From Crossiella sp. SN42 (lineage in GTDB: Bacteria; Actinomycetota; Actinomycetes; Mycobacteriales; Pseudonocardiaceae): a DNA stretch of 64,000 nucleotides. Shown here piece after piece: positions 22,567 to 54,523 of this stretch. The notes under the pieces were generated by a model that saw only the letters and a program-made list of their open reading frames with translations, ran no database searches and was not told the DNA's origin. How positions within the stretch are numbered: position 1 is the stretch's first letter; every line of letters begins with the position of its first letter. Made by a program: the position numbers and the translations under genes. The stretch lies in contig NZ_JAMHIV010000029.1 in assembly GCF_023897065.1 (NCBI RefSeq), forward strand, positions 62,001-126,000. The letters are read 5' to 3'.

Positions 22567-23580
22567 ATGAGTATTTCTGACCCTGTTCAACCTTTGGGGT
22601 CCGGCTCCGGTCTGGAAGAAGTCGCGCCGAACTCGTGGCGCATTCGTCAGCTGGAGCGAAGTCCAACCGAGATTATCCCGATCAGCTCGCTGCGGCCGTC
22701 CGACTCGCCCCGGCTGAGCGGTGAGAACAAGGAACACGTCAAAGTCCTCGCCGAATCCGAGGCGCCGCTGCCGCCGATCATCGTGCACCGCTCCACCATG
22801 CGGGTCATCGACGGCATGCACCGGCTCAGCGCGGCCATCCTCCGCGGCTGGGACGAGATCGAGGTGCGGTTCTTCGAAGGCGGCGAGCAGGACGCCTTCG
22901 TCTTCGCGGTGGAAGCCAATGTCACGCACGGCCTGCCGCTGTCGCTGAACGACCGCACGGCCGCGGCCACCCGGATCATCGGTATCCGGCCGCAGTGGTC
23001 CGACCGCATGATCGCCACCCTGTCCGGCCTCTCGGCCAAGACCGTGGCCGCGATCCGCCGGCGTTCGAGCGAGGAAAATCCGCAGTCGAACGCCAGGGTC
23101 AGCCGGGACGGCCGGGTGCGCCCGCTCAACGCCTCCGCCGGTCGTCAGCTGGCCAGCGAGCTGATGCGGGGCAACCCCGAGGCCTCGGTCCGGGAGATCG
23201 CCAGGGCCGCCGGGGTGTCCCCGTCGACCGTGTGGGACGTCCGCGAGCGCCTGCGGCAGGGCGAGGATCCGGTGCCGGCCAGGCACCGCGGCCTCAGCCA
23301 GCCGAAGAAGCAGCCGAGGGCCGAGGTCGCCGCCCCGCCGCGCCGGGAGGTGCCGGACCGCGGCCAGATCATGGACATCCTCCAGAAGGACCCTTCGATC
23401 CGGTCGAAGGAAAAGGGCCGTCAGCTGCTGCGCTGGCTCAACTTCCACACCGTCGACCTGTCCCAGGTGGACCAGTTGGTCAACGACTTCCCGGAGCACT
23501 GCTCGGGAATCATCGCGAAGCTGGCGCGGGTCAACGCGGAAACGTGGAACGAGCTGGCGAACCGGCTGGAAAAAGAGTGA
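22567..23580 (+). CDS. StrR-type ParB-fold pathway activator
   Basis: A 337-residue DNA-binding protein of the StrR/NovG group. The N-terminal ParB-like nuclease-fold domain (residues about 30-110) contains EIIPISSLRPSDSPRLSGEN, PPIIVHRSTMRVIDGMHRLS and the following AAILRGWDEIEVRFFEG. A central helix-turn-helix lies near residues 205-225 (ASVREIARAAGVSPSTVWDV). StrR activates streptomycin genes by binding paired GTTCGA half-sites; a matching site occurs at 35440-35468 and a near-match at 54630-54657. It is first of a four-gene set leading to the cyclitol genes. The start ATG has GGGGA five bases upstream. Confidence 0.88.
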   Translation: MSISDPVQPLGSGSGLEEVAPNSWRIRQLERSPTEIIPISSLRPSDSPRLSGENKEHVKVLAESEAPLPPIIVHRSTMRVIDGMHRLSAAILRGWDEIEVRFFEGGEQDAFVFAVEANVTHGLPLSLNDRTAAATRIIGIRPQWSDRMIATLSGLSAKTVAAIRRRSSEENPQSNARVSRDGRVRPLNASAGRQLASELMRGNPEASVREIARAAGVSPSTVWDVRERLRQGEDPVPARHRGLSQPKKQPRAEVAAPPRREVPDRGQIMDILQKDPSIRSKEKGRQLLRWLNFHTVDLSQVDQLVNDFPEHCSGIIAKLARVNAETWNELANRLEKE

Positions 23581-23613
23581 CCGCGCACTACACCGGCAGT
23601 GGAAGGCGAGAGA

Positions 23614-24387
23614 ATGCAGGGGCTTGACGGCAAGGTGGCGATCGTCACCGGTGGCGCCCAGGGAATTGGCCGCGCGACCGTGGACCGGCTGGTGGCCGAG
23701 GGTGTCGCGGTCACCATCGCGGATGTCAGCGACGATTACGGCAAGGCCGCCGAGGAGGAACTGACCGAGGCCGGTGGGCGGGTCTGGTATTCCCACACCG
23801 ATGTCGCCGACGAGGAGTCGGTGATCGCCGCGGTCACCGGGACCGCGGAGCAGTTCGGCCGGGTTGACTTCCTGGTGAACTGCGCCGCGGTGTTCATCAT
23901 GCGCGGCCTTGAGGCGACCGTGGACGAATGGCGCCGCATCATGGACGTCAACATCATGGGGCAGGCGCTGTGCGTGAAGCACGCGGCGCCGCACATGGCG
24001 CGGGCCGGTGGCGGCTCGATCGTCAACATCGCGTCCATTTCCGGCCACATCGCCCAGCCCGGATACCTCACCTACAACGCCACCAAGGCGGCGGTGGCCA
24101 ACATGACCCGGTGCATGGCGCTGGATCTGGCCGATTCCGGGATCAGGGTCAACGCGGTGAACCCGGGCACGGTCTGGAACGCCAACAACGAGCGCTACCA
24201 CCGCGAGGAGCTCGGCCTGACCAGGGCGCAGGCGGACCAGCACCCGGACATCGGCGGCAAGCACATCCTCAAGCGCACCGCCGACCCCTCGGAAATCGCC
24301 TCCACCATCGCGTTCCTGCTCTCCGCCGAGGCCAGCTACGTCACCGGGGAGAACCTGATGGTCGACGGGGGCTACACCGCGCTATGA
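23614..24387 (+). CDS. Short-chain dehydrogenase/reductase
   Basis: A 257-residue classical SDR. The cofactor motif is TGGAQGIG near residue 14, NCAA replaces NNAG near residue 88, and the catalytic Ser and YNATK lie near residues 140-157. The C terminus ends VTGENLMVDGG, typical of the family. It would oxidise or reduce a secondary alcohol. Beside an inositol-phosphate synthase, oxidation of a cyclitol hydroxyl to a ketone is an attractive role (inference). I start at ATG 23614, which has AAGG upstream, rather than the GTG at 23599. It overlaps the PHP gene by ATGA. Confidence 0.9.
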   Translation: MQGLDGKVAIVTGGAQGIGRATVDRLVAEGVAVTIADVSDDYGKAAEEELTEAGGRVWYSHTDVADEESVIAAVTGTAEQFGRVDFLVNCAAVFIMRGLEATVDEWRRIMDVNIMGQALCVKHAAPHMARAGGGSIVNIASISGHIAQPGYLTYNATKAAVANMTRCMALDLADSGIRVNAVNPGTVWNANNERYHREELGLTRAQADQHPDIGGKHILKRTADPSEIASTIAFLLSAEASYVTGENLMVDGGYTAL

Positions 24388-25193
24388 CCACCTTCGACCT
24401 GCACACCCACCACTCCCGGTGCGGGCACGCGCGCGGCGAGCTGCGCAGCTACATCGAGGCGGCGATCAGCCACGGCCTGGACATCATCGGGGTGTCGGAC
24501 CATTCCCCGTTCTTCGCCGACCCGGCCGAGCAGCCGCTGCCGGGGGTGGCGATGGCGAAGTCGGAGTTCCCGGCCTACCTGGACGAGGCCATCCGGCTGC
24601 GCGCGGAATACCGCGATCGGATCAAAGTCCTGGTCGGCGTCGAGTCCGACTACTTCCCGGAGCACGCGGAGCTTTACGCGAGCATCTACGCGCGGTATCC
24701 ATTGGATTATGTGATCGGTTCGGTGCACGTGCTCGACGGTGTCGACCTGTTCCGCAGGGAGCGCTGGCAAGGGGCCAGCAAGGCTGACCTGCGGAAGGCC
24801 AAGGAAGACTACTGCGACCTGGTCGCACGTTCGGCCAGTGCCGGAATGTTCGATATCCTTGGCCACATCGACGTCATCAAGGCGGTCTGTCCGGAAATCG
24901 CGGAAATCGACACGCCCGCGGTTGACACAATGCTTGACGCGATCGTGGCGGCCGATGTGGTCGTCGAGGTGAACACCTCAGGCAAGACCAAGGACTGCGG
25001 TGGTTGGTATCCAGCCGATGACCTGCTGGAACGCGCCCAGCGCCGGGGGGTCAAGATGACCTTCGGCTCGGATGCGCACGACCCGGAACGAGTAGGGGAA
25101 GAGCACGAGCTGGTCCGGAAGCAGTTGAAGGAAATGGGCTTCCGGGAGTGGTACGTCTTCGAACAACGACGTCGGATCCGTCTGCCGCTGTAG
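24384..25193 (+). CDS. PHP-domain phosphatase (histidinol-phosphatase-like)
   Basis: A 269-residue PHP hydrolase. Metal ligands are visible as DLHTHHSRCGHARGEL at the N terminus, GVSDHSPFF near residue 38, VGVESDYFP near residue 88, GSVHVLDGVD near residue 113, ILGHIDVIK near residue 158 and GSDAHDPERVGE near residue 230. The family removes phosphate from small molecules such as histidinol phosphate. Between an SDR and myo-inositol-1-phosphate synthase it could serve as the cyclitol phosphatase (inference). It is translationally coupled to the SDR and lies 30 bases before the synthase gene. Confidence 0.87.
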   Translation: MTTFDLHTHHSRCGHARGELRSYIEAAISHGLDIIGVSDHSPFFADPAEQPLPGVAMAKSEFPAYLDEAIRLRAEYRDRIKVLVGVESDYFPEHAELYASIYARYPLDYVIGSVHVLDGVDLFRRERWQGASKADLRKAKEDYCDLVARSASAGMFDILGHIDVIKAVCPEIAEIDTPAVDTMLDAIVAADVVVEVNTSGKTKDCGGWYPADDLLERAQRRGVKMTFGSDAHDPERVGEEHELVRKQLKEMGFREWYVFEQRRRIRLPL

Positions 25194-25223: not shown

Positions 25224-26327
25224 ATGACTGACGCCAAACCCACCGGTTCCGCTGAGGTGCGAGTCGCCCTGGCCGGGGTCGGCGGCTGTGCTTCCAGCAT
25301 CGCGCAAACCGTCGAGCTGGCCGGCCGCAGTTCCGAACAGCTGCACGGCATCATGTACCAGGAAATCGGCGGCTACCGCCTTTCCGATGTGAACTTCGTG
25401 GCCGCGTTCGAGGTGGACAAGCGCAAGGTCGGCCTGGACTTCGCCAAGGCGATCGTCACCGCGCCCACCGCGGCGGTGGCGCACGTGCACGTCGAGCCCA
25501 AGGGCCTGACCGTGGAGGCCGGGCCGCTGCTGGACGGCATCGAGGGCAAGCTGGCCGCGGCCATCGACCCGCACCCGGACTGCGCGAACATCACCGTCGA
25601 GCACGTCACCCAGCGGCTGCGCGAGGTGCGGGCCGAGGTGCTGCTGTGCGTGCTGCCCACCGGCGCCACCGCGGCGGTGCAGGCCTACGCCCGCGCCGCG
25701 GCGCTGGCCGGGGTGGCCTTCGTCAACGCGACGCCGGAGCCGGTGGCGCACGACCCCGAGCTGGTGGCGCTGTTCGAGGCCAACTCGGTGCCGCTGCTGG
25801 GCGATGACCTGCGCAGCCACCTGGGCGCGACCACGCTGCACACCGCGCTGCTGGAGCTGTTGCAGTCCAGGAACCTGGCGATCACCAACACCTACCAGCT
25901 CAACATCGGTGGCAACACCGACTTCCTCAACCTGTCCGACCCGGTCCGGGCGGCCGGCAAGATCCGTTCCAAGGGCAGTGCGCTCAAGGCGGCCGGCATC
26001 GATGCCACCAAGGTGATGGCCGGTCCCAACGGTTACGTCGAGTTCCTCGGCGACACCAAGACCTGCTTCCTGCGGATCGAGGCCACCTCGGTGCTGGACT
26101 CCCAGCTCAACATCGAGATCCGGATGGAGGTCGAGGACAGCCCGAACGCCGCCGGTGTGCTGGCCAACGCGGCCAGGGTCGCGAAGGTGGCGCTGGACCG
26201 CAAGCACGCCGGGGTGCTCGACGAGGTGTGCCCGTTCCTGTTCAAGCGCCCGCGTTTCGGCGCGCCGGAGTCGGTCGGCCTGGAGAAGTTCACCGGGTTC
26301 ATCGAGGGCGCGGTCCAGGCCAGCTGA
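25224..26327 (+). CDS. ino1: Inositol-3-phosphate synthase (myo-inositol-1-phosphate synthase)
   Basis: A 367-residue protein of the mycobacterial-type MIPS family. It has an N-terminal NAD-binding loop (ALAGVGGCASSIAQTVE), the conserved core GDDLRSHLGATTLHTALLE and the active-site region NIGGNTDFLNLSDP followed by a lysine-rich segment. It converts glucose-6-phosphate to inositol-3-phosphate using NAD. Actinomycetes have a housekeeping copy for mycothiol and phosphatidylinositol, but its position behind a StrR-type activator, an SDR and a phosphatase suggests a dedicated supply for a cyclitol product. The start has AAAGGA upstream. A strong hairpin follows the stop. Confidence 0.92.
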   Translation: MTDAKPTGSAEVRVALAGVGGCASSIAQTVELAGRSSEQLHGIMYQEIGGYRLSDVNFVAAFEVDKRKVGLDFAKAIVTAPTAAVAHVHVEPKGLTVEAGPLLDGIEGKLAAAIDPHPDCANITVEHVTQRLREVRAEVLLCVLPTGATAAVQAYARAAALAGVAFVNATPEPVAHDPELVALFEANSVPLLGDDLRSHLGATTLHTALLELLQSRNLAITNTYQLNIGGNTDFLNLSDPVRAAGKIRSKGSALKAAGIDATKVMAGPNGYVEFLGDTKTCFLRIEATSVLDSQLNIEIRMEVEDSPNAAGVLANAARVAKVALDRKHAGVLDEVCPFLFKRPRFGAPESVGLEKFTGFIEGAVQAS

Positions 26328-26474: not shown

Positions 26475-26738
26475 TCAGGATCGATCCGCGAGCCCGGAGA
26501 TCACCTTCCACAGCGCGCCCGCGGTCGCGAAGGTCTCCGCGGAGAGCTCCTCGTCCGGGAAGCTGATGCCGTAGTGCTCCTCCAGCTCCAGCAGCAGGTC
26601 CACCGTCTGCAGCGAGTCCAGGCCGAGGTCCGCCAGGCCGGCCGCCTCAGGAAGCTCCGCCTCCGCGCCCAGTGCGGGCAGGTGCTGCCGGAGGATCTTC
26701 TCGAAGCCGGGTTCCCATTCCATGTCCAGTCCTTCCAT
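26475..26738 (-). CDS. Acyl/aminoacyl carrier protein
   Basis: An 87-residue free-standing carrier protein. The phosphopantetheine attachment site is GLDSLQTVDLLLELEEHYGI, with Ser at about residue 42 intact. It would hold an amino acid or acyl group as a thioester. Its start overlaps the acyl-CoA dehydrogenase stop (TGATG), so it ends a four-gene operon with an AMP ligase, decarboxylase and dehydrogenase, and these are its likely partners. Confidence 0.92.
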   Translation of the reverse strand: MEGLDMEWEPGFEKILRQHLPALGAEAELPEAAGLADLGLDSLQTVDLLLELEEHYGISFPDEELSAETFATAGALWKVISGLADRS

Positions 26739-27934
26739 CAGTTGGCGCCGGCCAGAGTCACGGCGGGGTCGAGCACACTCAGCGCGCCGTTCGCGGTGAG
26801 CAGCCGGGTGTCGGAGTAGGTCAGGCTGGCCGCGGTCAGGTCGCGCAGCAGCCGCTCCAACGGCACGGGGGAGTCACGCCGGTAGCCGGTGTCCAGCCCG
26901 GCGAGCTGGATCATCGCGGTGGCCGCGGCCAGGCATTCCTCCGCGGCCAGCACCTTGAGCGTGTTCAGGTGGATCTGGGTGGCGGGGGAGCCCAGCGAGC
27001 TGCCCTGCGCCCGGTGCCGCTCGACCTCGGCGCGCACCGTGTGCAGGTAGGCGCTGACCGCCTCCAGCTTGGCCCGCACCCGGGCCACCCGGACCGCGGT
27101 CAGCGAGTCCCGCAGGTCGATCTTGCTGATGGGCCGCCGCAGGTGCGCCAGCAGCGCGGACCAGACCTTCCTGGTCGCGCCCAGCCAGGAGGCGGACCAG
27201 CTCAGGTGCGCGATCGGCCCCATGCACTCCACCGCGATCTCGCGGAACTTGCCGCGGCCGCCGATCAGCCGCTCGTCGGTGACCTGGCCGGTCAGCGTCA
27301 GCTCGAGGTTCTCCACCCCGCGCATGCCGAGGGTGTCCCAGGCCCCGCGCACCTCGATGTCCAGGTCGGCGCGGTCCAGGTAGACCATGCTGACCTCCTG
27401 CGCGGCCGCCTCCGGCGAGGCGAGCATCTTGATCAGGAAGCCGTCGGCGTGCGCGGCGCCGGTGACGATCGGCGCGCGCCTGGTCAGCCGGTAGTGGCCC
27501 TGCTCGGCGTGCAGCGGGCTCTCGCTGGTGAGCAGGTGCCCGCCCACAGTGGACTCGGTGGTCACCGAGCCGAGGTAGACCTCACCGGCGGCGATCCGGG
27601 GGAGCAGCCGCTCGCGCAGCTCCGGCTGGGCGTGCCGGACCAGCACGTCCACCTGCTGGCAGTGCATGGTCCAGATCAGCGAGGTGGACAGGCAGGCGCC
27701 GCCCAGCTCACCGGCCACCTCGACCAGGTCGGTGAGCCCGCCGCCGAGGCCGCCGTGCTCGACCGGCACGAGCAGGCCCATCAGGCCGCTGGCGCGCAGC
27801 GCGGCCAGCGCCTCGACCGGGAACCGGCCGCCGCTGTCCACCTCGGCGGCGTGCTCGGCGGCCACCGCCACCACGTTCGAAAGGTCGTGGCCGCTGCGTT
27901 CTCCGGTGGGCAAGGACTTAGTTCGGGTCACCAC
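26738..27934 (-). CDS. Acyl-CoA dehydrogenase-family flavoprotein
   Basis: A 398-residue protein of the acyl-CoA dehydrogenase fold, with an N-terminal helical domain (ALRASGLMGLLVPVEHGGLG), the flavin-contacting middle region (GSVTTESTVGGHLLTSE) and a helical C terminus. In carrier-protein pathways such enzymes oxidise the carrier-bound substrate, for example prolyl or other aminoacyl thioesters. I cannot be sure of a catalytic Glu at the usual C-terminal position. The GTG at 27934 has AGGAG upstream and overlaps the end of the decarboxylase gene by 17 bases. Confidence 0.85.
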   Translation of the reverse strand: MVTRTKSLPTGERSGHDLSNVVAVAAEHAAEVDSGGRFPVEALAALRASGLMGLLVPVEHGGLGGGLTDLVEVAGELGGACLSTSLIWTMHCQQVDVLVRHAQPELRERLLPRIAAGEVYLGSVTTESTVGGHLLTSESPLHAEQGHYRLTRRAPIVTGAAHADGFLIKMLASPEAAAQEVSMVYLDRADLDIEVRGAWDTLGMRGVENLELTLTGQVTDERLIGGRGKFREIAVECMGPIAHLSWSASWLGATRKVWSALLAHLRRPISKIDLRDSLTAVRVARVRAKLEAVSAYLHTVRAEVERHRAQGSSLGSPATQIHLNTLKVLAAEECLAAATAMIQLAGLDTGYRRDSPVPLERLLRDLTAASLTYSDTRLLTANGALSVLDPAVTLAGAN

Positions 27935-29180
27935 TCATCGCTCCTGCTCGGTCTTGTGCGGCATGGACTTCGGTGCGCACGGTCGCGATCGCGCTCGCCG
28001 AGCGGACGGTCCCGCCGTCCAGCACGACCTCCACCGGCGCCGGGTGGCTGAGGAAGCCGAGCAGGCTCGCGCTGAGCCCGTAGGCGCCCGCGTTGCGGAT
28101 CGCGATCAGGTCCCCGGCGCGCACCTCGGGGAGTTCGAGGTTCCTGGACAGCACGTCGGCCGGGGTGCACAGCGGGCCGACCAGGTCCACCGGAACCCTG
28201 GGGCTGGATTCTGCGCGCGAAGTCAGGGTTTCGGCCACCGCCCTGGTGGGCAGCATCCGGCCGATGCCGGAGAGCCCGCCGAGGTGGTTGATGCCGCCGT
28301 CGAGCACCACGAAGGTGCGCTCGCCGTTGGCCTTCACATCGGTCACCGCGCACACGTAGGTGCCGCAGGAGCCGACCAGGTAGCGGCCGGACTCGAAGGA
28401 GATCCGGGGCCGCTGCTCGCGCCAGCCGGGCAGCTCGGCCTCCAGCAGGGACTCCAGCTCGCCGCGCAGCACCCGGTAGTCGACCGGGTCGCCCGGCCGC
28501 AGGTAGGGCGTGGCGAACCCGCCGCCCAGGTCCACCTCGGCCAGCTCGAAGCCGGCCTCGGCGACCTGCCGGGCGGCCCGCGCGCTGATCGCGAAGGTCT
28601 CCAGCAGCGCGGCCGGATCGTCCACTCCGGACACCGGGAACAGGTGCAGACCGTTCACCACGGCGAAATCGGTGCCCCGGAAGGCAGCCGGCTCGGCCAG
28701 CAGCTGGTCCAGCTCGATGCCGAACTGGGAGACCCCGCCCATCCGCAGCTTCCCGCCCGCGCCGCGGCCGGCGTTCACCCGCAGCAGGCAGGACACCCGG
28801 ACCTGGCGCTGCCCGGCGATCTCGTCGAGCAGGCGCAGCTGGGCGGCGGACTCCACGGAGAACCGGCGGACGCCGAGGCTGAGCGCGTGCCGCAGTTCCG
28901 CGGGCGTCTTGCCGGGGCCGGTGTGCAGGATGTCCGGCGCGGCCACCCCGGCCAGCACCGCGGTGTCCAGCTCGCCGGTGGAGGAGACCTCCGCGTGGCA
29001 GCCGAGCTCGGCCAGTTGGCGGACCAGTTCCGGGTGCGGGTTGGCCTTGAGCGAGTAGTGCAGGGTGCTGGGCTGTGGCAGCGCGGCGGAGAGCTTCGCG
29101 TGCGCGGCCCGCACCTGGGCGAGGTCGTAGAGGTAGGCGGGGGTGCCGTAGCGCCGGGCGAGCGCGGCCGGGTCGCTCAT
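27918..29180 (-). CDS. Fold-type III PLP-dependent decarboxylase
   Basis: A 420-residue alanine-racemase-fold decarboxylase related to diaminopimelate and ornithine decarboxylases. The PLP lysine is in HYSLKANPHPELV near residue 48. The glycine loop is VDLGGGFATPY, the phosphate-binding SFESGRYLVG follows, and the C-terminal active-site Cys is in VGPLCTPADVL. It resembles decarboxylases that occur beside AMP ligases and carrier proteins (exosortase-associated sets and amino-acid starter-unit pathways), so the substrate may be carrier-bound. The ATG overlaps the ligase stop (ATGA). Confidence 0.88.
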   Translation of the reverse strand: MSDPAALARRYGTPAYLYDLAQVRAAHAKLSAALPQPSTLHYSLKANPHPELVRQLAELGCHAEVSSTGELDTAVLAGVAAPDILHTGPGKTPAELRHALSLGVRRFSVESAAQLRLLDEIAGQRQVRVSCLLRVNAGRGAGGKLRMGGVSQFGIELDQLLAEPAAFRGTDFAVVNGLHLFPVSGVDDPAALLETFAISARAARQVAEAGFELAEVDLGGGFATPYLRPGDPVDYRVLRGELESLLEAELPGWREQRPRISFESGRYLVGSCGTYVCAVTDVKANGERTFVVLDGGINHLGGLSGIGRMLPTRAVAETLTSRAESSPRVPVDLVGPLCTPADVLSRNLELPEVRAGDLIAIRNAGAYGLSASLLGFLSHPAPVEVVLDGGTVRSASAIATVRTEVHAAQDRAGAMSGDPN

Positions 29181-30745
29181 GCCGACTCCTCGCTCGCCCT
29201 GGCCAGCAGCTGCTTGCGGTCGAGCTTGCCGTTGGCCGTGGTGGGCAGGCTGGGCAGCACCTGGCAGCGGGCGGGCACCTTGGCCGGTTCCAGCCGCAGC
29301 CGCAGCTCGCGCAGCACCTCGGCCGGTTCGATCTCGCCCTCTGCCCACAGCAGCGGCCCGGCCTTGCCCGGCGGGCGGACCAGCGCCGCGGCGCGCACGC
29401 CCGGGATGTCCGCGGCGGCGGCCTCGATCTCGCTGCCGCTGACCCGGACGCCGGAGTTCTTGAACACGTCGTCCAGCCGGCCGCCGATCACCAGCTCGCC
29501 GTGCTCGTCCAGGTGGCCGTGGTCGCCGGTGAACAGCACCCGCCGCCCGGTGGCCACGCAGGTGGCGAAGCGCTCGCGGGTGGGTCCGGGCGCGCGCCAG
29601 TAGCCGTCGGCCACGTGCGGGCCGAGCACCACGATCTGCCCGGTCTGGTTGCGGGGCAACGGGTTCCCCTGCTCGTCCAGGATGGCGACCTGGGTGCCGG
29701 GCAGCGGCGGGCCGACCGAGTCGGTGGGCAGGTCCACCGCGGTCGGCGGCCGGATGGAGACGCGCTTGCACTCGGTCAGGCCGTACATCGGGGCCAGCTC
29801 GGCGTTGGGGAAGGCCTTGCGCAGGCCCACCTGGTCGGCGCGGGTCAGCGCCTCGCCGGTGTTGGTGATCAGCCGCAGCGTGTCCACCTGGGTGCCCCTG
29901 CGGGCCAGGGCCACCGCCATCCGGCCGAGGGTGGGCACCACCGGCAGCACGGTCGCGCCGGCGTCGCGCATCATCGGCAGCAGCTCGGCGTTGGTGGCGT
30001 GGTCGGCCAGCACCAGGTGCGCGCCCGCGTTGGCGCACAACAGGATCTGGTACAGGCCATAGTCGAAGGCCAGCGGCAGCCTGCCGAAGACCACGTCGTC
30101 GGCGCGGTAGCGCAGCTGCTCCGCCACCGCGGCCAGCGCGGTGCCGACCTGCCGGTGGCTGCACACCACGGCCTTGGGCTGGCTGGAGCTGCCCGAGGTG
30201 TAGAGCAGGAAGGCCGGGGCCTCCGGGATCGTCTCGTCGGTCTCGGTGCGGGCGGGGGTGTGCGCCGCCTCGCCCCAGGCCTGGTTGATGCCGACGACCT
30301 TGGCCCCGGCCCCGGCGAGGTCGGGGATCTCGGCGTCGAAGGCCAGCACCAGCGCCGGGTCGGCGTCGGCGATCAGCGGCAGCAGCTGGTAGGGCCGGGT
30401 CTGCACGTGCACCGGGACCAGCGTGACGCCGAGCCGGAGCGCGCCGTGCAGCAGCGCGAGGAAGTCCACCGAGGACTCGGCGCGGGCCACCACCCGGTCG
30501 CCGGGGCGCAGGCCGCGCTCCCACAGCCAGCCGCTGAACCGCCTGCTCAGCTCGGCCAGCGCGGCGTAGTCGAGGGCACACCGGTGGTCGGTCGCGGCGG
30601 GGGCGCCGGGCGCGCGCCGGGCCGCGGCGTCCAGGGCCAGGTGCACCGGCACGGACAGCACCGGGACGCGGCTCGGGTCGCCGACGACCAAGTGTTCCGG
30701 CCATCGGCTCGTGTCAATCGACGTGCTGGTCGCGCATTCAGTCAT
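29177..30745 (-). CDS. AMP-forming acyl/aminoacyl ligase
   Basis: A 522-residue adenylate-forming enzyme. Core motifs are LLYTSGSSSQPKAVV near residue 178, YGLTECKRVSIRP near residue 318, LFTGDHGHLDEHG near residue 400 and the catalytic lysine in TTANGKLDRKQL at the C terminus. It activates a carboxylic or amino acid as AMP ester and presumably loads the carrier protein of the same operon. I start at ATG 30745 (MTECATSTS), since the upstream extension has no clear binding site. First gene of the leftward operon; the 240-bp region to its right is a divergent promoter. Confidence 0.88.
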   Translation of the reverse strand: MTECATSTSIDTSRWPEHLVVGDPSRVPVLSVPVHLALDAAARRAPGAPAATDHRCALDYAALAELSRRFSGWLWERGLRPGDRVVARAESSVDFLALLHGALRLGVTLVPVHVQTRPYQLLPLIADADPALVLAFDAEIPDLAGAGAKVVGINQAWGEAAHTPARTETDETIPEAPAFLLYTSGSSSQPKAVVCSHRQVGTALAAVAEQLRYRADDVVFGRLPLAFDYGLYQILLCANAGAHLVLADHATNAELLPMMRDAGATVLPVVPTLGRMAVALARRGTQVDTLRLITNTGEALTRADQVGLRKAFPNAELAPMYGLTECKRVSIRPPTAVDLPTDSVGPPLPGTQVAILDEQGNPLPRNQTGQIVVLGPHVADGYWRAPGPTRERFATCVATGRRVLFTGDHGHLDEHGELVIGGRLDDVFKNSGVRVSGSEIEAAAADIPGVRAAALVRPPGKAGPLLWAEGEIEPAEVLRELRLRLEPAKVPARCQVLPSLPTTANGKLDRKQLLARASEESA

Positions 30746-36732: not shown

Positions 36733-36760
36733 AGTGCCGAAGTCAAGAGAGGTGGTAGGG

Positions 36761-47020: not shown

Positions 47021-47805
47021 GGATCCGGTACGCCGCGCTGGACCTGGACGGCACGCTGATCGACGAGGCCGACGAGCCCTACGAGGGCGTGGTGGCCGGC
47101 CTGCGGGCACTGCGCAAGCGCGGGGTGCTGCCGCTGGTGATCACCGGCAGGGCGGCCCGCTCCTTCCGCAACCTGCGGCACCTGGACGACCTGTTCGCCG
47201 AGGTCGACGACGAGGTGCTGCTCAGCGAGGGCAACGTGCGCATCGCCTTGGGCGTCAACGAGTTGTCCTTCTCGCTGAGCTGCCCGAACGAGGTGCTGCG
47301 CACACTGGCCGAGGACTCCGCCACCGACCTGGTGGCGGAGTGCTCCGGCGAGTTCTACGCCAGCAGCGCGCGGGCCGCGGCCCAGTTCGCGATGGCCTAC
47401 CGGGTGCCCAGGCGGCAGATCGAGGTCACCGGCAAGGGCACCGCGGACATCCCGTGGTTCACCGCGGTGACCATCTTCCGCAGCCGCGTCCCGGTGCCCG
47501 AGCTGGTGGCGGGGCTGGACTGCGAGGCGGTCACCATCGGCCCGTTCGGCGCGCACGTGGTGCGCCCGCGCGGCACCTCCAAGGCCGCCGCGCTGCGCAG
47601 GCACTTGCGGCGGCGGTTCAACGAGCCGGACCTCAGCGCCACCATGGCCATCGGCGACACCGCCACCGACGCCTCGATGCTGGCCGCCTGCGCGCTCGGC
47701 ATCGCCACCCAGCACGCCGACGAGGCGGCCAGCGCGGCCGCCGACCGCAAGCTCGACGGCGACCTCGCCGCATTCCTGCACGACTTCCGTCCCGAAGGGT
47801 GGTAA
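47017..47805 (+). CDS. HAD-IIB (Cof-like) phosphatase
   Basis: A 262-residue HAD hydrolase. The nucleophile motif ALDLDGTLIDE is near residue 6, Thr/Ser in VITGRAA near residue 41, Lys in RGTSKAAAL near residue 187 and the acidic pair GDTATDASML near residue 208. It probably dephosphorylates the sugar product of the transketolase step (inference). It starts with GTG overlapping the transketolase stop. Confidence 0.9.
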   Translation: MRIRYAALDLDGTLIDEADEPYEGVVAGLRALRKRGVLPLVITGRAARSFRNLRHLDDLFAEVDDEVLLSEGNVRIALGVNELSFSLSCPNEVLRTLAEDSATDLVAECSGEFYASSARAAAQFAMAYRVPRRQIEVTGKGTADIPWFTAVTIFRSRVPVPELVAGLDCEAVTIGPFGAHVVRPRGTSKAAALRRHLRRRFNEPDLSATMAIGDTATDASMLAACALGIATQHADEAASAAADRKLDGDLAAFLHDFRPEGW

Positions 47806-47809: not shown

Positions 47810-48931
47810 GTGACCGAACCGGTGTCCCAGGAGACGGAGCTCGTCCTCCTGCTGTCCCTGCCGGATCCGCGGCCCGACGAGGCCGACGCGATGCTCAAGC
47901 TGCTCAACACCCCGCTGGACTGGAACCAGGTGCTGGGCATGCTGACCGTGCACCGCGTCATCGGCGTGGCCTGGCACAACATCCTGCGCTTCGTCATCGC
48001 GCACCGGCAGACCCTGCGCTCCTCCTACTTCATCAAGTCGCTCAAGGTCACCGCGGCCGGACAGGAGCTGATGGCCGAGGAGCAGCGCTCGCGCACCGCG
48101 CAGGTGCAGGCGGCGCTGAGCGCGGCCGGGGTGCGCAGCGCGGTGCTCAAGGGCGCCGCGGTGGCCGCGATGGCCTACCCCTCGGCGGGCATGCGCGCCT
48201 TCCACGACAACGACCTGCTGGTGGACCGGGAACAGCTGCCCGCGGCCACCGCGGCGTTGCAGGAGGCCGGGTACGTGCAGGGCAGCTGGGACTACGAGAC
48301 CAGCTCGGTGCGCCCGGCGGCGCGGCGGCAGGTCATGTTCATGGCCATGCACTCGCACCAGACCTACTCCTACATGAAGCCCACGCCGGAAGCCTCGGTG
48401 CTGGAGTGCCACCGCCTGGACGTGCACTTCTCCATCGACCTGATGACCGGCAACCGCAGCGACGCCGCGGTATCGGCGTTGCTGGACAACCGGATCGAGC
48501 TCAACGGGCTCAGCGTGATCTCCCCGACCGACATGCTGATCTTCAGCTGCCTGCACTTCGCCAGGGAGGCCGCGCACCGCAACGAGGTGCTCGCGCTCAA
48601 GGACCTGGTGCTCTACAAGCTGGTCGACATCCTGGCGCTGCTGGCCGGGGACCACGACTTCAGCGACCTGGCCGCGCGGGCCGGGCAGCTGGGCTTCACC
48701 AAGGAGGCCTACTTCGCGCTGCACCACTGCGCGGAGATCTTCCCCGGCCGGGTGCCGACCGAGCTGCTGGACCCGTTGCGCCCCAACGACCTCGCCTACC
48801 TGGACGAGGTGGACGACGGCAAGACCGTGGTGCACCGCTGGCAGACGCCGATGGTGCGCCGGATGTTCGACGTGCACCGGCTGCGCGAGCTGGAGGGCGA
48901 CCTGAATATCCCGGAGCTTGGCCGGAAGTAG
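47810..48931 (+). CDS. Uncharacterised nucleotidyltransferase (NTP_transf_5 family)
   Basis: A 373-residue protein of the family often found in lasso-peptide clusters (PF14907). The core is VRSAVLKGAAVAAMAYPSAG near residue 108, followed by the metal-binding MRAFHDNDLLV. The rest is helical. In paeninodin-type clusters a related protein accompanies an HprK-like kinase and asparagine-synthetase-like cyclase, the same trio seen here. It would transfer a nucleotide to a phosphorylated substrate (inference). The GTG is four bases after the HAD stop. A strong terminator follows. Confidence 0.78.
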   Translation: MTEPVSQETELVLLLSLPDPRPDEADAMLKLLNTPLDWNQVLGMLTVHRVIGVAWHNILRFVIAHRQTLRSSYFIKSLKVTAAGQELMAEEQRSRTAQVQAALSAAGVRSAVLKGAAVAAMAYPSAGMRAFHDNDLLVDREQLPAATAALQEAGYVQGSWDYETSSVRPAARRQVMFMAMHSHQTYSYMKPTPEASVLECHRLDVHFSIDLMTGNRSDAAVSALLDNRIELNGLSVISPTDMLIFSCLHFAREAAHRNEVLALKDLVLYKLVDILALLAGDHDFSDLAARAGQLGFTKEAYFALHHCAEIFPGRVPTELLDPLRPNDLAYLDEVDDGKTVVHRWQTPMVRRMFDVHRLRELEGDLNIPELGRK

Positions 48932-48991: not shown

Positions 48992-48996
48992 TTGTG

Positions 48997-50736
48997 TCAG
49001 GGCAGGGAGATCTCCAGCACCATCAGGCCCCACAGCAGCCGCGAGTGGTCCTGGCCCGCGCCGTGCTCGGTGATCACCTGGCGCACGGCGGCCTCGCTGA
49101 GGAAGCCCGAGGAGCACAGCCGGGGCCGGGCGAGCACCTCGCGGGCGAAGTCCCACAGCGTGCCGCCGGGGGCCATGAAGGCGCTGACCGGGAAGGTGAA
49201 CGGCTGCTTCTCCCTGGCCGAGACCGAGGCCGGGATGGACCGGGCGCCGGCGTCCCAGAGGATCTTCTTGCGGCTGGACCCGTTGACCTTCCACGCATCC
49301 AGGGTGCGCCGGGCGAACCGGGTGACCTCCGGCTGGCAGTAGGGCACCCGGCCCTCGACCGCGTGCGCCATGGACAGGTGGTCCAGCTTGCGCAGGTTCA
49401 GGCTGGGCAGCTTGTGCAGCCGGTCGAAGCTGAGCAGCTGCTCCAGCCGGGAGGGCGCAGGGAGGGTGAGCAGCTCCAGCGCGCGCTGCCTGCTGCTGCC
49501 CCTGGAGTCGAGCAGCTCGCGGTACTCCGGGGTGTAGAGCCGCCGGTACTCCGCTTCCGGCACAAGGGAAAGCCGGTCCAGGTACCGGGCGGCCCAGCTG
49601 TCCTCGTCGGCGGCCAGCGCGGTGCTGTAGCGGCGGTAGCCGCCGAACTGCTCGTCCGCGCCGTCACCGACGAAGCAGACCCGGAAGCCGCCGGCGGAGA
49701 TCTCCCGGAACAGCGCGTAGGCGCTCAGCGCGTGCGGGGTGGCGTTGGGCGCGCCCAGGGCGGCCACCGTGGCCGGGATCAGCTCCGGCAGCTCGGCCTC
49801 GCGGATCTCCACCACCTCAAGGGGAATCCCGGCGAAGGCGGCCGCATCCCTGGCATAGGCCAGCTCGTCGGAGTCGTGCGTGCCCTCGTGCGTGACGTGG
49901 AAGCCGGTCACGTCGCCGCGGCGCTGCTTGAGCAGGGTGGCCAGCACGCTGGAGTCCAGGCCGCCGGAGACCTGCACCGCGATCGGCGCGGACTGCAACG
50001 ACATCTGCGCCACCTCGCGCGCCAGCAACGCGGCCAGGCGCTCCGGATCGTTGCCCTCGTCGGTGACCGGCTCGGTCTCCTGCCACCACCGCCGGGTGCG
50101 CGCGGTCTGGCCGTCGTAGACCAGCGCCTCGCCCGGGTGCAGCGCGGAAACCCCGGTGTACCAGGAGGATCCGTTGGGCTGGCACTGCCAGTTGAGGTAG
50201 TCGTCGACCGCGAGCGGATCCACGTCCAGGGGCTTCTCCACCAGCGCGGTCAGGCCGCGTAGCTCGGAGGAGAAGGCGATGCCGTCCTGGGTCAGCGCGT
50301 AGTACAGGCTCTTCACCGCGAGGTGGTCGCACCACAGCTTGAGCTCGCGGCCCCGGCGCAGGTCCACCACGGCGATGGCGAACATGCCCTCCAGCCGCTC
50401 TGCGAAGCGGTCGCCGTGCAGCTCGTAGTAGGGCACCAGGACCGAGCCGTCGGAGTCGCCGTCCACGTGCACGCCGCGCGCGGCCAGCTCGGCCCGGATG
50501 GCCCGGAAGTTGTAGATCTCGCCGTTGAACACCGCGTGCACCGTGCCCTCGGCGTTGCGGAAGGGCTGCCTGCCGGTGCTGGGGTCCTGAATGGACAGAC
50601 GGTTGCAGCCGATGCCCCAGTCCGCGCCGCTGGTGTGCCGCTGGACGTCCGGTCCGCCGGAGAGCTGGGCGTCCCGCGCGCCGTCTAGTGCGGTGGGGTG
50701 GAACCCATGTCCGAAGTAGCCGTAGATCCGGCACAT
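48997..50736 (-). CDS. Asparagine synthetase-like amidotransferase
   Basis: A 579-residue AsnB-type enzyme. Cys2 begins the glutaminase domain (MCRIYGYFGHG), and the domain has FNGEIYNFRAIR near residue 70. The ATP-pyrophosphatase domain starts with VSGGLDSSVLATLL near residue 257 and includes FVGDGADEQFGGYRRY near residue 355. All main motifs are present, so glutamine-dependent amidation of a carboxylate is possible. In lasso systems this family closes a macrolactam, but no precursor or leader-processing genes are visible. Divergent from the P-loop kinase gene across 134 bp. Confidence 0.88.
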   Translation of the reverse strand: MCRIYGYFGHGFHPTALDGARDAQLSGGPDVQRHTSGADWGIGCNRLSIQDPSTGRQPFRNAEGTVHAVFNGEIYNFRAIRAELAARGVHVDGDSDGSVLVPYYELHGDRFAERLEGMFAIAVVDLRRGRELKLWCDHLAVKSLYYALTQDGIAFSSELRGLTALVEKPLDVDPLAVDDYLNWQCQPNGSSWYTGVSALHPGEALVYDGQTARTRRWWQETEPVTDEGNDPERLAALLAREVAQMSLQSAPIAVQVSGGLDSSVLATLLKQRRGDVTGFHVTHEGTHDSDELAYARDAAAFAGIPLEVVEIREAELPELIPATVAALGAPNATPHALSAYALFREISAGGFRVCFVGDGADEQFGGYRRYSTALAADEDSWAARYLDRLSLVPEAEYRRLYTPEYRELLDSRGSSRQRALELLTLPAPSRLEQLLSFDRLHKLPSLNLRKLDHLSMAHAVEGRVPYCQPEVTRFARRTLDAWKVNGSSRKKILWDAGARSIPASVSAREKQPFTFPVSAFMAPGGTLWDFAREVLARPRLCSSGFLSEAAVRQVITEHGAGQDHSRLLWGLMVLEISLP

Positions 50737-50870
50737 AGTGTTGCCCCCAACGATGTGGTTGTCCGCGAACGGAAAGCGCGACGGCCTCGGCCCTTCCGGC
50801 CTGGTGATCTATCCTTAGCACGGGCCGGATGAGGCTGTATAGCGAACCAGGACGGGACGAGGGACGGCAC

Positions 50871-51440
50871 ATGCGCTGGCATCGGCTGCTGATCACGGGG
50901 GCGAGCGGGGCGGGCACCACCACCCTGGGCCGGGCACTGGCCTCCCTGCACTCGGTGCCGCACGCCGAGGCCGATGACTACCTCTGGCTGCCGACCTCCC
51001 CGCCCTATCTGCACAAGCGGCCGATGGAGGACCGGATCGCGCTGATGCGGGCGGTGTTCCTGCCGAGGGACTCCTGGGTGCTCTCCGGTTCGGTGAAGGG
51101 CTGGGGCGAGGTGATCCCGGCCCGGCTGGAGGGCGTGGTATTCCTCACCATCGACCAGCAGGCCCGGATGGCGCGGTTGCTGGAGCGGGAGGTGCTGCGC
51201 TACGGCGACAGCATCAAGCCGGGCGGCAGCAACGAGGCCGCGCACCACGAGTTCCTCGACTGGGCAAGGGGATACGACGACGACACCGCCAGCCGCAGCC
51301 TGGCCAGCGACGAGAAGTGGCTGGCCGGACTGACCTGCCCGGTGCTGCGCCTTGACAGCGCGCAACCGGTGGCCGACCTGGTGGCCGCGGTGGAGCGGTG
51401 GACCAGCGCGGAGCTGGTGGTGGGGGAGTCCGGCCCGTGA
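50871..51440 (+). CDS. P-loop kinase-like protein (adenylate kinase type)
   Basis: A 189-residue P-loop protein. Walker A is LLITGASGAGTTTLGRALA near residue 8 (a Thr in place of the usual Lys: GASGAGTTT), followed by AEADDYLWL near residue 33. It resembles small nucleoside/shikimate-kinase-like proteins of actinomycetes. The Lys loss in the P-loop could reduce ATP binding. Its stop overlaps the APH gene by GTGA. Start at ATG 50871 has GAGGGACGG upstream. Confidence 0.72.
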   Translation: MRWHRLLITGASGAGTTTLGRALASLHSVPHAEADDYLWLPTSPPYLHKRPMEDRIALMRAVFLPRDSWVLSGSVKGWGEVIPARLEGVVFLTIDQQARMARLLEREVLRYGDSIKPGGSNEAAHHEFLDWARGYDDDTASRSLASDEKWLAGLTCPVLRLDSAQPVADLVAAVERWTSAELVVGESGP

Positions 51441-52351
51441 TCGAGCGCGCGGTGCGGCTCATCGACGCGGGCGGGGCGGTGGAGCTGGAGGGCAGGGGCG
51501 TCAACCGCTCCTACCGGCTCGCTGACGGCGACCGCGTGCTGTCGGTGAAGGTGCACTGTGCGGCCACCTCGGCCGAGACCGACCACCAGCGGATCCAGCG
51601 GGTGGACGAGGCGCTGAGGGGCGCCGACTGGTACCCGCCGGTGCTGGACATCGGTCACACCGCACCGGATCGGCTGGTGGTCATCCGCCCGTTCGTGCCC
51701 GGCGCTGCCTCCGAGGACGCGGCCCGGCACCTGGACGTGCTGGCCGGTGTGCTCGGCGAGCTGGCCGCAGGCACCGCGGCGGTCCCGGCCGAACTGGTCT
51801 GGGACTACGCGACGCCCTGGCTGACCGAGGGCGAGCGGGAACACCTGGCGGCCAAGGAGATGCTCACCGGCGAGTGGGACACCTTGTTGCGCGCCATGGA
51901 CGAGCACCTCGGCGACCTGCTGGCCGGCGCGCTCCGGCTGACCGGGACCGGCGAACCCGCGCTGTACCACGGTGACCTGCACGGCCGGAACCTGATCTGG
52001 CACGAGTCCCGCCCGCTGACCGTGATCGACTGGGACGAGACCGGGTTCTCCCACCGGCCCGCCGACCTCGGCAAGGCGCTGTGGCTGTCCTGCCGCAAGG
52101 GCCGGGGCGACTTCGAGCTGGATCCGCCCGCGGTGCGCCGGTTCCTGGCGCTGCTGCGCGCCAACCCGGCGCTCCCGCTTGCCGACCCGGCCGACCTGGC
52201 CAGGCTCGGCGCGATCTGGTTCCTGCCGAGGTACCACCACGTGACGCTGCTCGCGCAGCGCGACGCCCAGTTCATCCCGTGGTACCTCGGCTGGGTTTCC
52301 CGCTTCTGGGCGCGGTTCCCGGCGAACCTGGACCTGGTCAGCCGCGGCTAG
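51437..52351 (+). CDS. APH-family phosphotransferase (possible self-resistance kinase)
   Basis: A 304-residue APH-fold kinase. An N-terminal nucleotide region (GRGVNRSYRLADGDRVLSVK) precedes the catalytic loop LYHGDLHGRNLIWHE near residue 180 and VIDWDETGF. All catalytic residues are present. In a StrR-controlled cluster with phosphatases and exporters, an APH protein may phosphorylate the product to protect the host (inference). Translationally coupled to the kinase-like gene and overlapping the convergent NDK-like gene by 14 bases. Confidence 0.82.
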   Translation: MIERAVRLIDAGGAVELEGRGVNRSYRLADGDRVLSVKVHCAATSAETDHQRIQRVDEALRGADWYPPVLDIGHTAPDRLVVIRPFVPGAASEDAARHLDVLAGVLGELAAGTAAVPAELVWDYATPWLTEGEREHLAAKEMLTGEWDTLLRAMDEHLGDLLAGALRLTGTGEPALYHGDLHGRNLIWHESRPLTVIDWDETGFSHRPADLGKALWLSCRKGRGDFELDPPAVRRFLALLRANPALPLADPADLARLGAIWFLPRYHHVTLLAQRDAQFIPWYLGWVSRFWARFPANLDLVSRG

Positions 52352-53336
52352 CGGTCCAGCGCCGGACCGCGTCCAGGGTCTGCTCACGGCTGAGACCCTC
52401 GGTGGCGCCGTGCGGGGACACCGTCTCCCCGGACTGCTCGGCCACGTTGTGGTCCCCGGCCAGCGCCGCCACCGCCTCCATCGGCAGGCCGAGCCCGGCG
52501 AGCGCGCGGCCCAGCACGGTGGCGTCCAGGCCCTGCCCGTCCGCGGCGCTGAAGTACCGCCAGCTCTGGAACATGCCCTCCAGGTGGCCCGCGGACAGGT
52601 GCACCGCGTTGCGGCCCTCGGACAGCGCGATCCCGCCCGGCCCGCCGACCAGCGCGTGCACCGCGCCGCGCAGCGAGGCCGGATCGGCCTTGCCGGGGTG
52701 CAGCTCGCCGAGCAGGTTGTCCCGCAGGTCCTCGATCTCGCGCTCGCTGTGGCACTCCAGCAGGCCGACCAGCCCGGCACTGCCGCGGTAGCCCGCGGCC
52801 AGCACCGGCAGGAACCCGTTGAGCACCACCACAGCGCGCCCGTGCAGCTGGACCACCGAGGCGTAGGAGCCCGAGCCCAGCTTGTGGATCCCGGCCTGGC
52901 GGCACCGGGCCTCCAGCGCCGCCGGGTCCAGCTCCGGGTCCAGGGTCATCGCCTCGAAGGCCCCCAGTGCGCCGGTGGCCGCCGAGGAGTCCAGCAGCGC
53001 GGCCAGTGCCCGGCTGGCACCAGAACTCAGCGCGGCGGACCCGTCAGCGGCCACCCGGTGCAGGCGGGGGTAATGCTGGAGCAGGTAGCCCCGCTCGCCG
53101 AACTCCCTGGCCGTGGTCACCGCACAGCGCAGGATGTCCACCTTGCCGTCACCGAGCACCCGGACGACCTCGCCCAGCACCTCGGTGGCGTTTTCCCCTT
53201 GCAGCACCTCAGGTTTGACCATGGTCACGAAGTGCGTGCCGCCGCCCGGCACCGGCCCGCCGAGCGGTCCGGTGTCCTGGCGGCGGCCCGTGCGCAGCAC
53301 CTCCGCGAGCAGCGGCCGCACCTGGGCGGGACTCAC
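52338..53336 (-). CDS. Nucleoside-diphosphate-kinase-like protein with a large insertion
   Basis: A 332-residue protein with NDK signatures split by a long insert. THFVTMVKPEV (residues about 37-47) matches the N-terminal Lys motif. ADPASLRGAVHALVG and GRNAVHLSAGHLEGMFQSW (residues about 230-275) match the NDK R-loop and the N-x-x-H catalytic histidine segment. The middle 100-odd residues and the C terminus have no NDK counterpart; normal NDKs are about 140 residues. It would phosphorylate a nucleotide or analogue, but the insert may recruit another substrate. The GTG overlaps the SAM synthetase stop (GTGA), implying joint action. Confidence 0.68.
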   Translation of the reverse strand: MSPAQVRPLLAEVLRTGRRQDTGPLGGPVPGGGTHFVTMVKPEVLQGENATEVLGEVVRVLGDGKVDILRCAVTTAREFGERGYLLQHYPRLHRVAADGSAALSSGASRALAALLDSSAATGALGAFEAMTLDPELDPAALEARCRQAGIHKLGSGSYASVVQLHGRAVVVLNGFLPVLAAGYRGSAGLVGLLECHSEREIEDLRDNLLGELHPGKADPASLRGAVHALVGGPGGIALSEGRNAVHLSAGHLEGMFQSWRYFSAADGQGLDATVLGRALAGLGLPMEAVAALAGDHNVAEQSGETVSPHGATEGLSREQTLDAVRRWTASRG

Positions 53337-54523
53337 CACAGGGTGATGCCCTTCTCGATCAGCTCGACGGTCAGCTCACCGGTGTTGGCAATGGCTTCCT
53401 CGACCAGCGCGGTCACCACGGCCTCGTCCGGGTCCGGCGCGGTCACCACGACCTCGTCGGGGCTCTCCAGCGGCGCTTCCTTGGAGGTGAAGATGTGCAC
53501 CTGGGTCGCCCCGCCGCACTTCTCGTGCACCTGCTGGGCCAGCCGCATGGCCATCACGTTGTAGATCTTGCCGGTGTGGTCCAGCGGGTTCTTGCCTGCC
53601 GGCGCCTCGATGCTCATCGGGCGCATCGGCGTGATCAACCCGTTGACCCGGTTGCCGCGGCCGACCACGCCGACGTCACCGGTGTCGGCGACGGAGCCGA
53701 GCGCGGTGAGGTAGGGGCGGCCGTTGCGGTCGGTGGCGTTCATCAGCAGCTCGTAGTCGGCGATGCCGAGGCCCTGGATGAACTCGTTGAGCTCCTGCTG
53801 GATGACCGCCTTGCGCGCCCAGTACTGGTCCATCGACTCGATGTGCGCGGCCAGGAACGGCATGTTCACGACCAGGCTGAACTTGTCGCCGCGGCGGCTG
53901 CCGAAAACCTTGACGTCCCAGCCGCTGTCGGGGTGCCGCTGCTTGAAGTCGGAGCCGTTGATCAGGTGCTCCAGGCCCTGCACCAGGTTCTCCAGCCGGG
54001 ACAGCGGCGCGAAACCGTGCAGCAGGTTGGTGTCGTTGGAGACCAGCCCGCCGGAGCGGACCTTCACCAGGTCATCGATGGACTGCGGCTGGTACCGGGA
54101 GACCCCGCGGCCGGAACCGTGGTGGTCCACGACGCCCAGCTCGACCACCAGGTGCTTGGCTGGGTCGAAGCCGGTGGTGACCTGCGAGAGCACATCGGAG
54201 GCGGCCCGGAACATGATGTCCTGCACCGGAATCTCGGTGCTGCCCACCCGGTAGGCGCCCTTGCCGAAGACCTTCACCCGGTACGGCGCGGTGATCTCGC
54301 CACGGCCGTAGTCGATGTCCGCGCCGCCGCCGTAGAGGGTCACCTTGTCGAACCAGTGGTGCGCGACCCCGCCGAACTCCTTCAGGCAGTGCTGGGAGTA
54401 GTAGCGCGACATGCGCTCGGCCATCGCGTCGCACATGGTGTCCGGGTGACCGACACCCTTCCGCTCCACCAGCTCGTAGGGCAGATCTTCGACCGAACGC
54501 GAGTCCCGATGAATCTGCAGCAT
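53333..54523 (-). CDS. Archaeal-type S-adenosylmethionine synthetase
   Basis: A 396-residue methionine adenosyltransferase of the archaeal family (PF01941), not the bacterial MetK family. Diagnostic stretches are [20 protein letters not shown] near residue 20, [17 protein letters not shown] near residue 50, and [17 protein letters not shown] then [17 protein letters not shown] near residue 295. It joins ATP and methionine to SAM, or a related sulfonium. Overlap with the NDK-like gene suggests a shared nucleotide substrate, perhaps a non-standard NTP (speculation). A StrR-like site lies 107 bases upstream of the start. Confidence 0.9.

Follow-up and report, generated by a model that had tools for sequence, protein, structure and literature searches.

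A candidate cyclitol biosynthetic gene cluster of Crossiella sp. SN42 with an Ari2-affiliated MIPS paralog and an S-adenosylmethionine synthetase paralog altered at the methionine site

Genes for cyclitol, amino acid and phosphate chemistry lie side by side in the actinomycete Crossiella sp. SN42 (Pseudonocardiaceae), and the question they raise is whether they form one biosynthetic cluster, and what such a cluster might assemble. The DNA analysed, hereafter the window, is a stretch of 64,000 nucleotides from contig NZ_JAMHIV010000029.1 (positions 62,001 to 126,000, forward strand); coordinates below are those of the window, and genes are on the plus strand unless marked minus. A sequence-only reading had proposed at 22,567-54,523 a set of about 26 co-directionally coupled genes, joining a cyclitol core, a carrier-bound amino acid and phosphate or nucleotide chemistry. 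Twenty-seven genes were counted there from open reading frame lists and a simple GC-frame caller, which also set the gene starts in place of a trained gene finder. Coupling is co-directional in part only, with eight genes of the 27 running on the minus strand. Pfam and NCBIfam support nearly all the enzyme functions over the 27 proteins, including the MIPS, the PHP phosphatase, three short-chain dehydrogenases (SDR1 to SDR3), the AMP ligase, carrier protein, decarboxylase, acyl-CoA dehydrogenase and condensation enzyme, as well as the two nucleotidyltransferases, the split transketolase, PhyH, AsnB and the archaeal-type S-adenosylmethionine (SAM) synthetase named in that reading. Comparison with relatives makes it well supported that the interval is a single biosynthetic cluster, belonging to a small family with members in Streptomyces and the Pseudonocardiaceae.

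Relatives were searched with two genes. With the HprK-like kinase HprK1, eight loci were recovered from other genomes, seven from Streptomyces and one from Umezawaea tangerina (Pseudonocardiaceae). The archaeal-type SAM synthetase (PF01941) had matches in 37 of 392 Streptomyces genomes, and gave three further clusters (G491, G643 and G729), bringing the loci from other species to 11. Matches covering less than 40% of the query, or overlapping a better match, are left out of the presence matrix. Another genome from the species of the window encodes 28 of 28 proteins (the 27 and the flanking lacI) at 92-100% identity. Among the 11 other-species loci, SDR1 (23599..24387; Pfam), the NDK-like protein (52338..53339, minus) and an HprK2-like kinase (29% identical in two) are found in all. 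The SAM synthetase (53333..54523, minus) is present in ten, with a contig-end fragment in L004. The MIPS gene (25224..26327) is likewise present in ten, and the contig of the eleventh locus starts inside the adjacent SAM-synthetase gene. The PHP-family, histidinol-phosphatase-like protein (24384..25193; Pfam and NCBIfam, PHP 1.2e-22) and HprK1 (28% in G643) are each found in ten. The APH-fold small-molecule kinase (51398..52351; Pfam) and the AAA18 kinase (50829..51440) are clear in nine and weak (27-32%) in G643 and G729, the G643 AAA18 protein being detected only against its G008 homolog. The nucleotidyltransferase NT2 occurs in nine loci, AsnB and SDR3 (43607..44299; Pfam) in eight, and the His_Phos protein clearly in seven, with a 30% match in Umezawaea. 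The family is rare. A search with the NDK-like protein matched four of 390 Pseudonocardiaceae genomes, two of these belonging to the species of the window and one match being marginal, and three of 396 genomes across the Actinomycetota, one being the window's own and two giving marginal short matches. In a plasmid collection only four records were retrieved, with partial HprK-like matches of 29-32%.

The tightest arrangement is that of G643, where SDR1, PHP, MIPS, APH, HprK, SAM synthetase, NDK-like protein, AAA18 and a DegT aminotransferase form a run on one strand. The APH, HprK and NDK-like proteins of G643 are only 27-32% identical to those of the window, yet the run is retained. In G729 the order is SDR1, MIPS, APH, HprK, AAA18 and a DegT homolog (56%), followed by SAM synthetase, NDK-like protein, an SDR and PHP. 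The conserved core thus delineated by sequence comparison consists of an Ari2-affiliated MIPS paralog, an SDR, usually a PHP protein, a SAM-synthetase paralog, and a phosphoryl-transfer set of four folds, namely APH, HprK/PEPCK, AAA18 and an enlarged NDK. The AAA18 and APH kinases are core members absent from the gene list of the earlier reading; also new beyond it are, as judged from the alignments, the assignment of MIPS to a distinct paralog affiliated to Ari2 and the altered methionine site of the SAM synthetase.

The MIPS paralog (PF01658, 1.1e-26) is distinct by sequence from the housekeeping Ino1 and falls on the side of Ari2, the five-membered cyclitol phosphate synthase of the aristeromycin pathway (PDB 6K96). 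A second MIPS is encoded elsewhere in the genome of the window, and each of the 11 genomes examined has at least two. The motif GDDLRSH(L/V)G, read as GDDLRSHLG in the window, marks 12 distinct cluster genes (13 rows); GDDIKSQVG is found in 12 housekeeping copies and in Mycobacterium tuberculosis Ino1. Ari2 has GDDLASHLG, and hence has GDDL.SH.G in common with the cluster copies and differs from them by an A in place of R. All rows retain the four lysines that were compared. In an unrooted tree of 27 rows, built without outgroup after 8 of 32 loci had been dropped for lack of a match at threshold, a branch with support 1.000 unites Ari2 and the cluster copies. The comparison concerned Ari2 only, rather than the whole aristeromycin cluster. 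Genes for the assembly and attachment of a purine are expected in clusters for carbocyclic nucleosides of the aristeromycin type; none is found among the 27 proteins. Ari2 is described in the part of PMC11188666 that deals with it as converting fructose 6-phosphate to a five-membered cyclitol phosphate.

The SAM-synthetase paralog matches its family over the whole length (Pfam 1.4e-93; also NCBIfam), and was compared with TkMAT and SsMAT residue by residue. In the sections of PMC3853416 that assign roles to TkMAT residues, Asn64 is a ligand of the methionine carboxylate, with His62 and Asn161; His33 is catalytic, Asp201 and Asp283 bind ribose, and Tyr271 stacks on adenine. The cluster proteins compared make 13 rows, corresponding to 11 distinct genes (G005 and G008 occur twice), and were set against 27 others, two archaeal and 25 from other Streptomyces loci, sequences of 300 residues or fewer being dropped. 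In TkMAT numbering, all 11 of the distinct cluster genes have Trp in place of Asn64; the 27 others have Asn (26) or Gln (1). His33, His62, Asn161, Asp201, Tyr271 and Asp283 are kept in all 11. While 59 columns are invariant and identical across both groups, seven (Tk 61, 95, 149, 164, 166, 278 and 280) are invariant within each group yet differ between them. Three of these, 61, 164 and 166, adjoin methionine-carboxylate ligands in sequence, and in all 11 cluster genes Leu61 has become Ala, Ser164 Asn and Gly166 Leu. Compared with TkMAT and SsMAT, the cluster proteins have a longer flexible loop, a feature also of the other Streptomyces group. Since the residues for adenine and ribose are kept, the change is placed on the methionine side, and a wholly different nucleotide was rejected as substrate. 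The replacements point to a changed second substrate, and fall short of proof. A bacterial MetK and an NDK are encoded elsewhere in the genome of the window, and no methyltransferase or radical-SAM protein was found among the 27 proteins (26 by Pfam, the carrier protein by NCBIfam). Twenty-five loci examined in Streptomyces hold a second, commoner group of archaeal-type SAM synthetases, 33-39% identical to that of the window, as exemplified by L079:8649-15820 (G563) and L080 (G723). Neighbours of the G563 gene look APH- and His_Phos-like by eye, and are followed by a full-length seryl-tRNA synthetase copy.

The phosphoryl-transfer proteins differ in how readily they are classified. The AAA18 protein, a small P-loop kinase, is adenylate-kinase-like (PF13238, 1.8e-6; NF004861 above cut-off). 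The label NDK-like, given from sequence, obtained no Pfam or NCBIfam match at 0.001, and found support in a predicted model (mean pLDDT 87.0), for which NDP kinases are 49 of the 50 best of 388 Foldseek matches, at target TM-scores of 0.55-0.78. None of the 388 reaches E 0.001: the best NDK has 1.3e-3, and rank 1 (1.1e-3) is an unrelated entry for a flagellar doublet. A profile searched against PDB sequences matched only NDKs, at E 0.5-1.8. N244 and H247 of the NxxH motif are invariant in eight of eight sequences. The protein is thus predicted to have an NDK fold with NxxH, plus a large insertion. Both kinases called HprK-like in the earlier reading have weak sequence matches to HprK_rel_A. 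For HprK1 (35584..36732; GDSGAGKST; 6e-4), the AlphaFold model (mean pLDDT 78.6, poor at residues 224-265) has PEPCK as top match and HprK from E 1e-4, so that a PEPCK/HprK fold is predicted; its profile retrieved mostly generic P-loop proteins from PDB sequences, with HprK at E 0.34-0.35. HprK2 (38544..39722, minus; 3e-4) gave two PDB profile matches, both HprK, at E 0.17.

The chemistry that follows is inferred from sequence; the cluster family is well supported in itself. A probability of roughly 0.4 is given to a pathway in which successive phosphorylations turn a cyclitol into an intermediate resembling a nucleoside triphosphate, the SAM-synthetase paralog displaces the polyphosphate, and an amino acid and further groups come from the variable modules. 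The MIPS paralog would cyclise a hexose phosphate, and the resulting cyclitol phosphate, which could be five-membered as with Ari2, would be adjusted by PHP and SDR1. APH or HprK would make a monophosphate, the adenylate-kinase-like AAA18 protein a diphosphate and the NDK-like protein a triphosphate, giving together an ester similar to a nucleoside triphosphate. Displacement of triphosphate is the normal reaction of the SAM-synthetase fold. Here the displacing nucleophile would be something other than free methionine, or else a methionine derivative lacking a free carboxylate. A more specific proposal, decidedly doubtful as it stands, is that a carbocyclic triphosphate made via APH/HprK, AAA18 and the NDK-like protein is used by a neofunctionalised SAM synthetase to alkylate a non-methionine nucleophile, triphosphate leaving, and that the sulfonium or adenosyl-type natural products so formed make up a new class.

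Around the core, the accessory modules vary from member to member: a carrier-bound decarboxylated amino acid, transketolase, PhyH, AsnB plus a nucleotidyltransferase, or a DegT aminotransferase. Cyclitol, amino acid and phosphate or nucleotide chemistry are joined in one cluster as had been proposed, with the amino acid module being only accessory. The latter comprises, all on the minus strand, a stand-alone acyl carrier protein (ACP) with a GLDSL motif (26475..26738; NCBIfam only, and sequence reading), an acyl-CoA dehydrogenase family protein (ACAD; 26738..27934; Pfam; 50% in Streptomyces spinosus G011, 53% in G643), a pyridoxal phosphate (PLP) decarboxylase of the Orn/DAP/Arg type, its start codon not settled (27918..29192; Pfam; 46% in S. 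spinosus), and an AMP-forming amino-acid/acyl ligase (29177..30802; Pfam and NCBIfam). A protein with adenylation and condensation domains follows (30986..34591; Pfam), in which an HHISVD motif and a degenerate carrier-like tail were read from the sequence, and then SDR2 (34588..35355; Pfam). The ligase would load an amino acid on the ACP, the PLP enzyme would decarboxylate it, the ACAD oxidise it and the condensation protein attach it. The decarboxylase probably acts on the ACP-bound amino acid, in presumable parallel to butirosin. In the VinN-VinL-VinO system of vicenistatin, AMP ligase, stand-alone ACP and PLP decarboxylase are found as in the window, where they stand side by side and the ACP has the DSL serine, and thioester formation precedes decarboxylation according to the relevant part of PMC11284099. 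The module of the window differs by the additional ACAD-like enzyme and by having no polyketide synthase.

A second accessory block includes the PhyH oxygenase of the iron/2-oxoglutarate type (44392..45276; Pfam; 77% in S. spinosus, 52% in G643), the N-terminal (45273..46052; Pfam; 77% in S. spinosus) and C-terminal (46049..47020; Pfam, scanned as 45998-47017; 76% in S. spinosus) transketolase subunits, a Cof-type HAD phosphatase (47017..47805; Pfam and NCBIfam) and the NTP_transf_5 nucleotidyltransferase NT5 (47810..48931; Pfam 3.1e-35; 74% homolog in S. spinosus). SDR2 and the fused adenylation-condensation protein are found in none of the 11 other-species loci, and decarboxylase, N-terminal transketolase and NT5 in one each, with a 28% NTP_transf_5 relative of NT5 in G643. 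ACP and PhyH occur in two; so does ACAD at 50% or more, with 25-27% matches in five. The ACP, ACAD, decarboxylase, ligase, transketolase, PhyH and NT5 are regarded as accessory because they occur in S. spinosus, partly in G643, and in no other relatives at comparable identity. Where the window has its exporter pair (39731..41596, Pfam, and 41590..43434, Pfam and NCBIfam) and fused protein, S. spinosus has an ABC exporter carrying a C39 peptidase domain and a condensation protein that stands alone (L034:9726-13471; Pfam). The window's pair would export the final product. A 193-residue protein with only the C-terminal transketolase domain, perhaps a remnant, lies beside MIPS in U. tangerina (L031:5905-6486; Pfam; 50% to that of the window).

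Three further genes are absent from the DegT-bearing loci G643 and G729 and present in seven to nine of the other nine: AsnB, a glutamine-dependent amidotransferase (48997..50736, minus; Pfam and NCBIfam), NT2 and the His_Phos protein. Given this mutually exclusive occurrence, in a small sample, they and DegT may be alternative modules. NT2 (36734..37867) is of the NTP_transf_2 type by Pfam (4.3e-5), alignment and its GS...DFD motif; its profile found in the PDB only one chance match. The C-terminal tail of NT2 is conserved (consensus APAGENNKS), with G, E and one N invariant in seven of seven aligned sequences. The His_Phos branch-1 protein (37884..38513; Pfam) has AHP where the family motif is RHG, and seven relatives have THP (6) or AHP (1). 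The replacement, noticed by sequence reading, suggests changed or lost phosphatase activity. Of the several phosphatases claimed earlier, PHP and HAD are backed by family matches, and the His_Phos protein may be no ordinary phosphatase. Seven Streptomyces members (G005, G007, G008, G009, G012, G491 and G729) share an upstream set of genes for a methyltransferase, a class III aminotransferase, a 347-residue nucleotidyltransferase-like protein, a HAD protein, an ACAD-like protein and an SRPBCC protein, joined in all but G012 by an ABC permease and an epimerase. None of this set was found in the window, barring a 32% ABC match. In U. tangerina the core has beside it a ligase resembling class II tRNA synthetases, an LD-carboxypeptidase (both by Pfam) and a further HprK-like protein 29% identical to HprK2 (L032:1252-5325).

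Several observations weigh against the pathway favoured here, that of a cyclitol polyphosphate consumed by the SAM-synthetase paralog. The window MIPS scores nearer to Ino1, its best PDB match (238 bits), than to Ari2, the second best (207 bits), and the Ari2 branch of the tree is long. HprK1 and PF01941 are present in the relatives by construction, because the relatives were found with them. The ABC pair, the StrR-like regulator and the condensation protein are absent from most relatives, and neither an aminotransferase nor a base-attaching enzyme was found among the 27 proteins. In the SAM synthetases of the cluster, His62 and Asn161 are retained and the loop with Asp144 and Leu145 is unaligned; at 145 the other Streptomyces group, too, differs from TkMAT, with Arg in the alignment. 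Replacement of one methionine ligand by Trp is no proof of a different nucleophile, and the adenine and ribose residues kept fit plain ATP as well as an ATP-like product of the pathway. Moreover, a methyltransferase supported by Pfam is found near the core in eight of the 11 relatives (seven homologous, a different one in Umezawaea).

These methyltransferases favour another view, possible and still rather doubtful, by which the SAM synthetase confers self-resistance, the product being an inhibitor of methionine or SAM metabolism, or supplies SAM for a methylation, and the kinases act on an ordinary cyclitol antibiotic, either activating it or providing resistance to it. The nucleotide-site residues are indeed kept, and aristeromycin-type products are mentioned in PMC11188666, in the part concerned, as inhibitors of S-adenosylhomocysteine hydrolase. 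No SAM-dependent enzyme was found among the 27 proteins of the window, however, and the G008-type methyltransferase, the only one sought there, was not found in the regions of the window, G004, S. spinosus and G643. The NDK-like gene, moreover, accompanies the SAM synthetase in 11 of 11 other-species loci, and the methionine site is among the changed residues, though a resistant target could change there too. The pathway might otherwise be of the streptomycin type, in which MIPS, phosphatase, inositol dehydrogenase, aminotransferase and inosamine kinase lead to an inosamine phosphate, here a six-membered aminocyclitol to be decorated by the other kinases and the nucleotidyltransferases. MIPS, SDR1 and APH are accompanied in G643 and G729 by a DegT/StrS-family aminotransferase, and the window and G643 have a StrR-like regulator in common. 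This is judged unlikely: the 27 proteins include no aminotransferase, glycosyltransferase or amidinotransferase, the G643 DegT has no homolog in the window, MIPS groups with Ari2 rather than with Ino1, and the pair of SAM synthetase and NDK-like protein is left unexplained.

Two more explanations are very improbable. An HprK-like kinase, an NTP_transf nucleotidyltransferase, an AsnB-like cyclase and an ABC exporter could denote a phosphorylated lasso peptide or another ribosomally synthesized and post-translationally modified peptide. Related kinase and nucleotidyltransferase types are found in paeninodin- and pseudomycoidin-type lasso clusters, whose HprK homologs can load several phosphoryl groups onto one serine, a precedent for several phosphates on one hydroxyl, as stated in the portion of PMC8498205 on these enzymes; the C39 domain of the S. 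spinosus exporter would fit as well. AsnB passes the NCBIfam cut-off for asparagine synthase (295 bits) and fails that for lasso cyclase (75 bits against 525). No B protein of the PqqD or transglutaminase type occurs among the 27 proteins, a precursor peptide not being searched for, and for want of the B protein the peptide reading was rejected. That two or three unrelated clusters lie together by chance would agree with the several strand switches, and with the finding that most relatives lack the majority of the genes at 26.5-35.4 kb and 39.7-48.9 kb. Against it, the 11 other-species loci have core genes of both halves interleaved, the one half with SDR and MIPS and the other with SAM synthetase, NDK-like protein and kinases, and both halves are retained in S. 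spinosus together with transketolase, PhyH, NT5, ACAD, decarboxylase, ligase and ACP. The halves, whose separate occurrence the sequence-only reading had held up as a counter-argument, therefore do not occur independently, and that option was rejected.

The cluster opens with the StrR-like regulator (22567..23580). Helix-turn-helix matches were obtained at its C-terminus, and of the 11 other-species loci only G643 has a homolog (43% identical). Domain tools detected no ParB-like N-terminus, and a comparison with the PDB gave a single chance match. Ordinary uptake genes make up the left flank (GH35 beta-galactosidase, solute-binding protein, permease and LacI regulator), and a solute-binding protein and a permease are found on the right. 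Outside the cluster, at 13625-16012 (minus), an AurF-type N-oxygenase adjoins a ferredoxin/pyridine-nucleotide oxidoreductase.

Among the titles and opening lines of abstracts listed from the open-access literature, no product or paper matching the conserved core was found. The cluster would be of the cyclitol biosynthetic type, a kind already known, with a possible new role for one of its enzymes. If the proposed pathway is true, a SAM synthetase would have passed from cofactor metabolism to the assembly of a product, served by dedicated kinases that build the triphosphate leaving group, and the SAM-synthetase fold would acquire a new role. The MIPS paralog, the NDK-like protein and the Trp64 SAM synthetase would then constitute a rare signature, by which an unexplored family of compounds may be mined.

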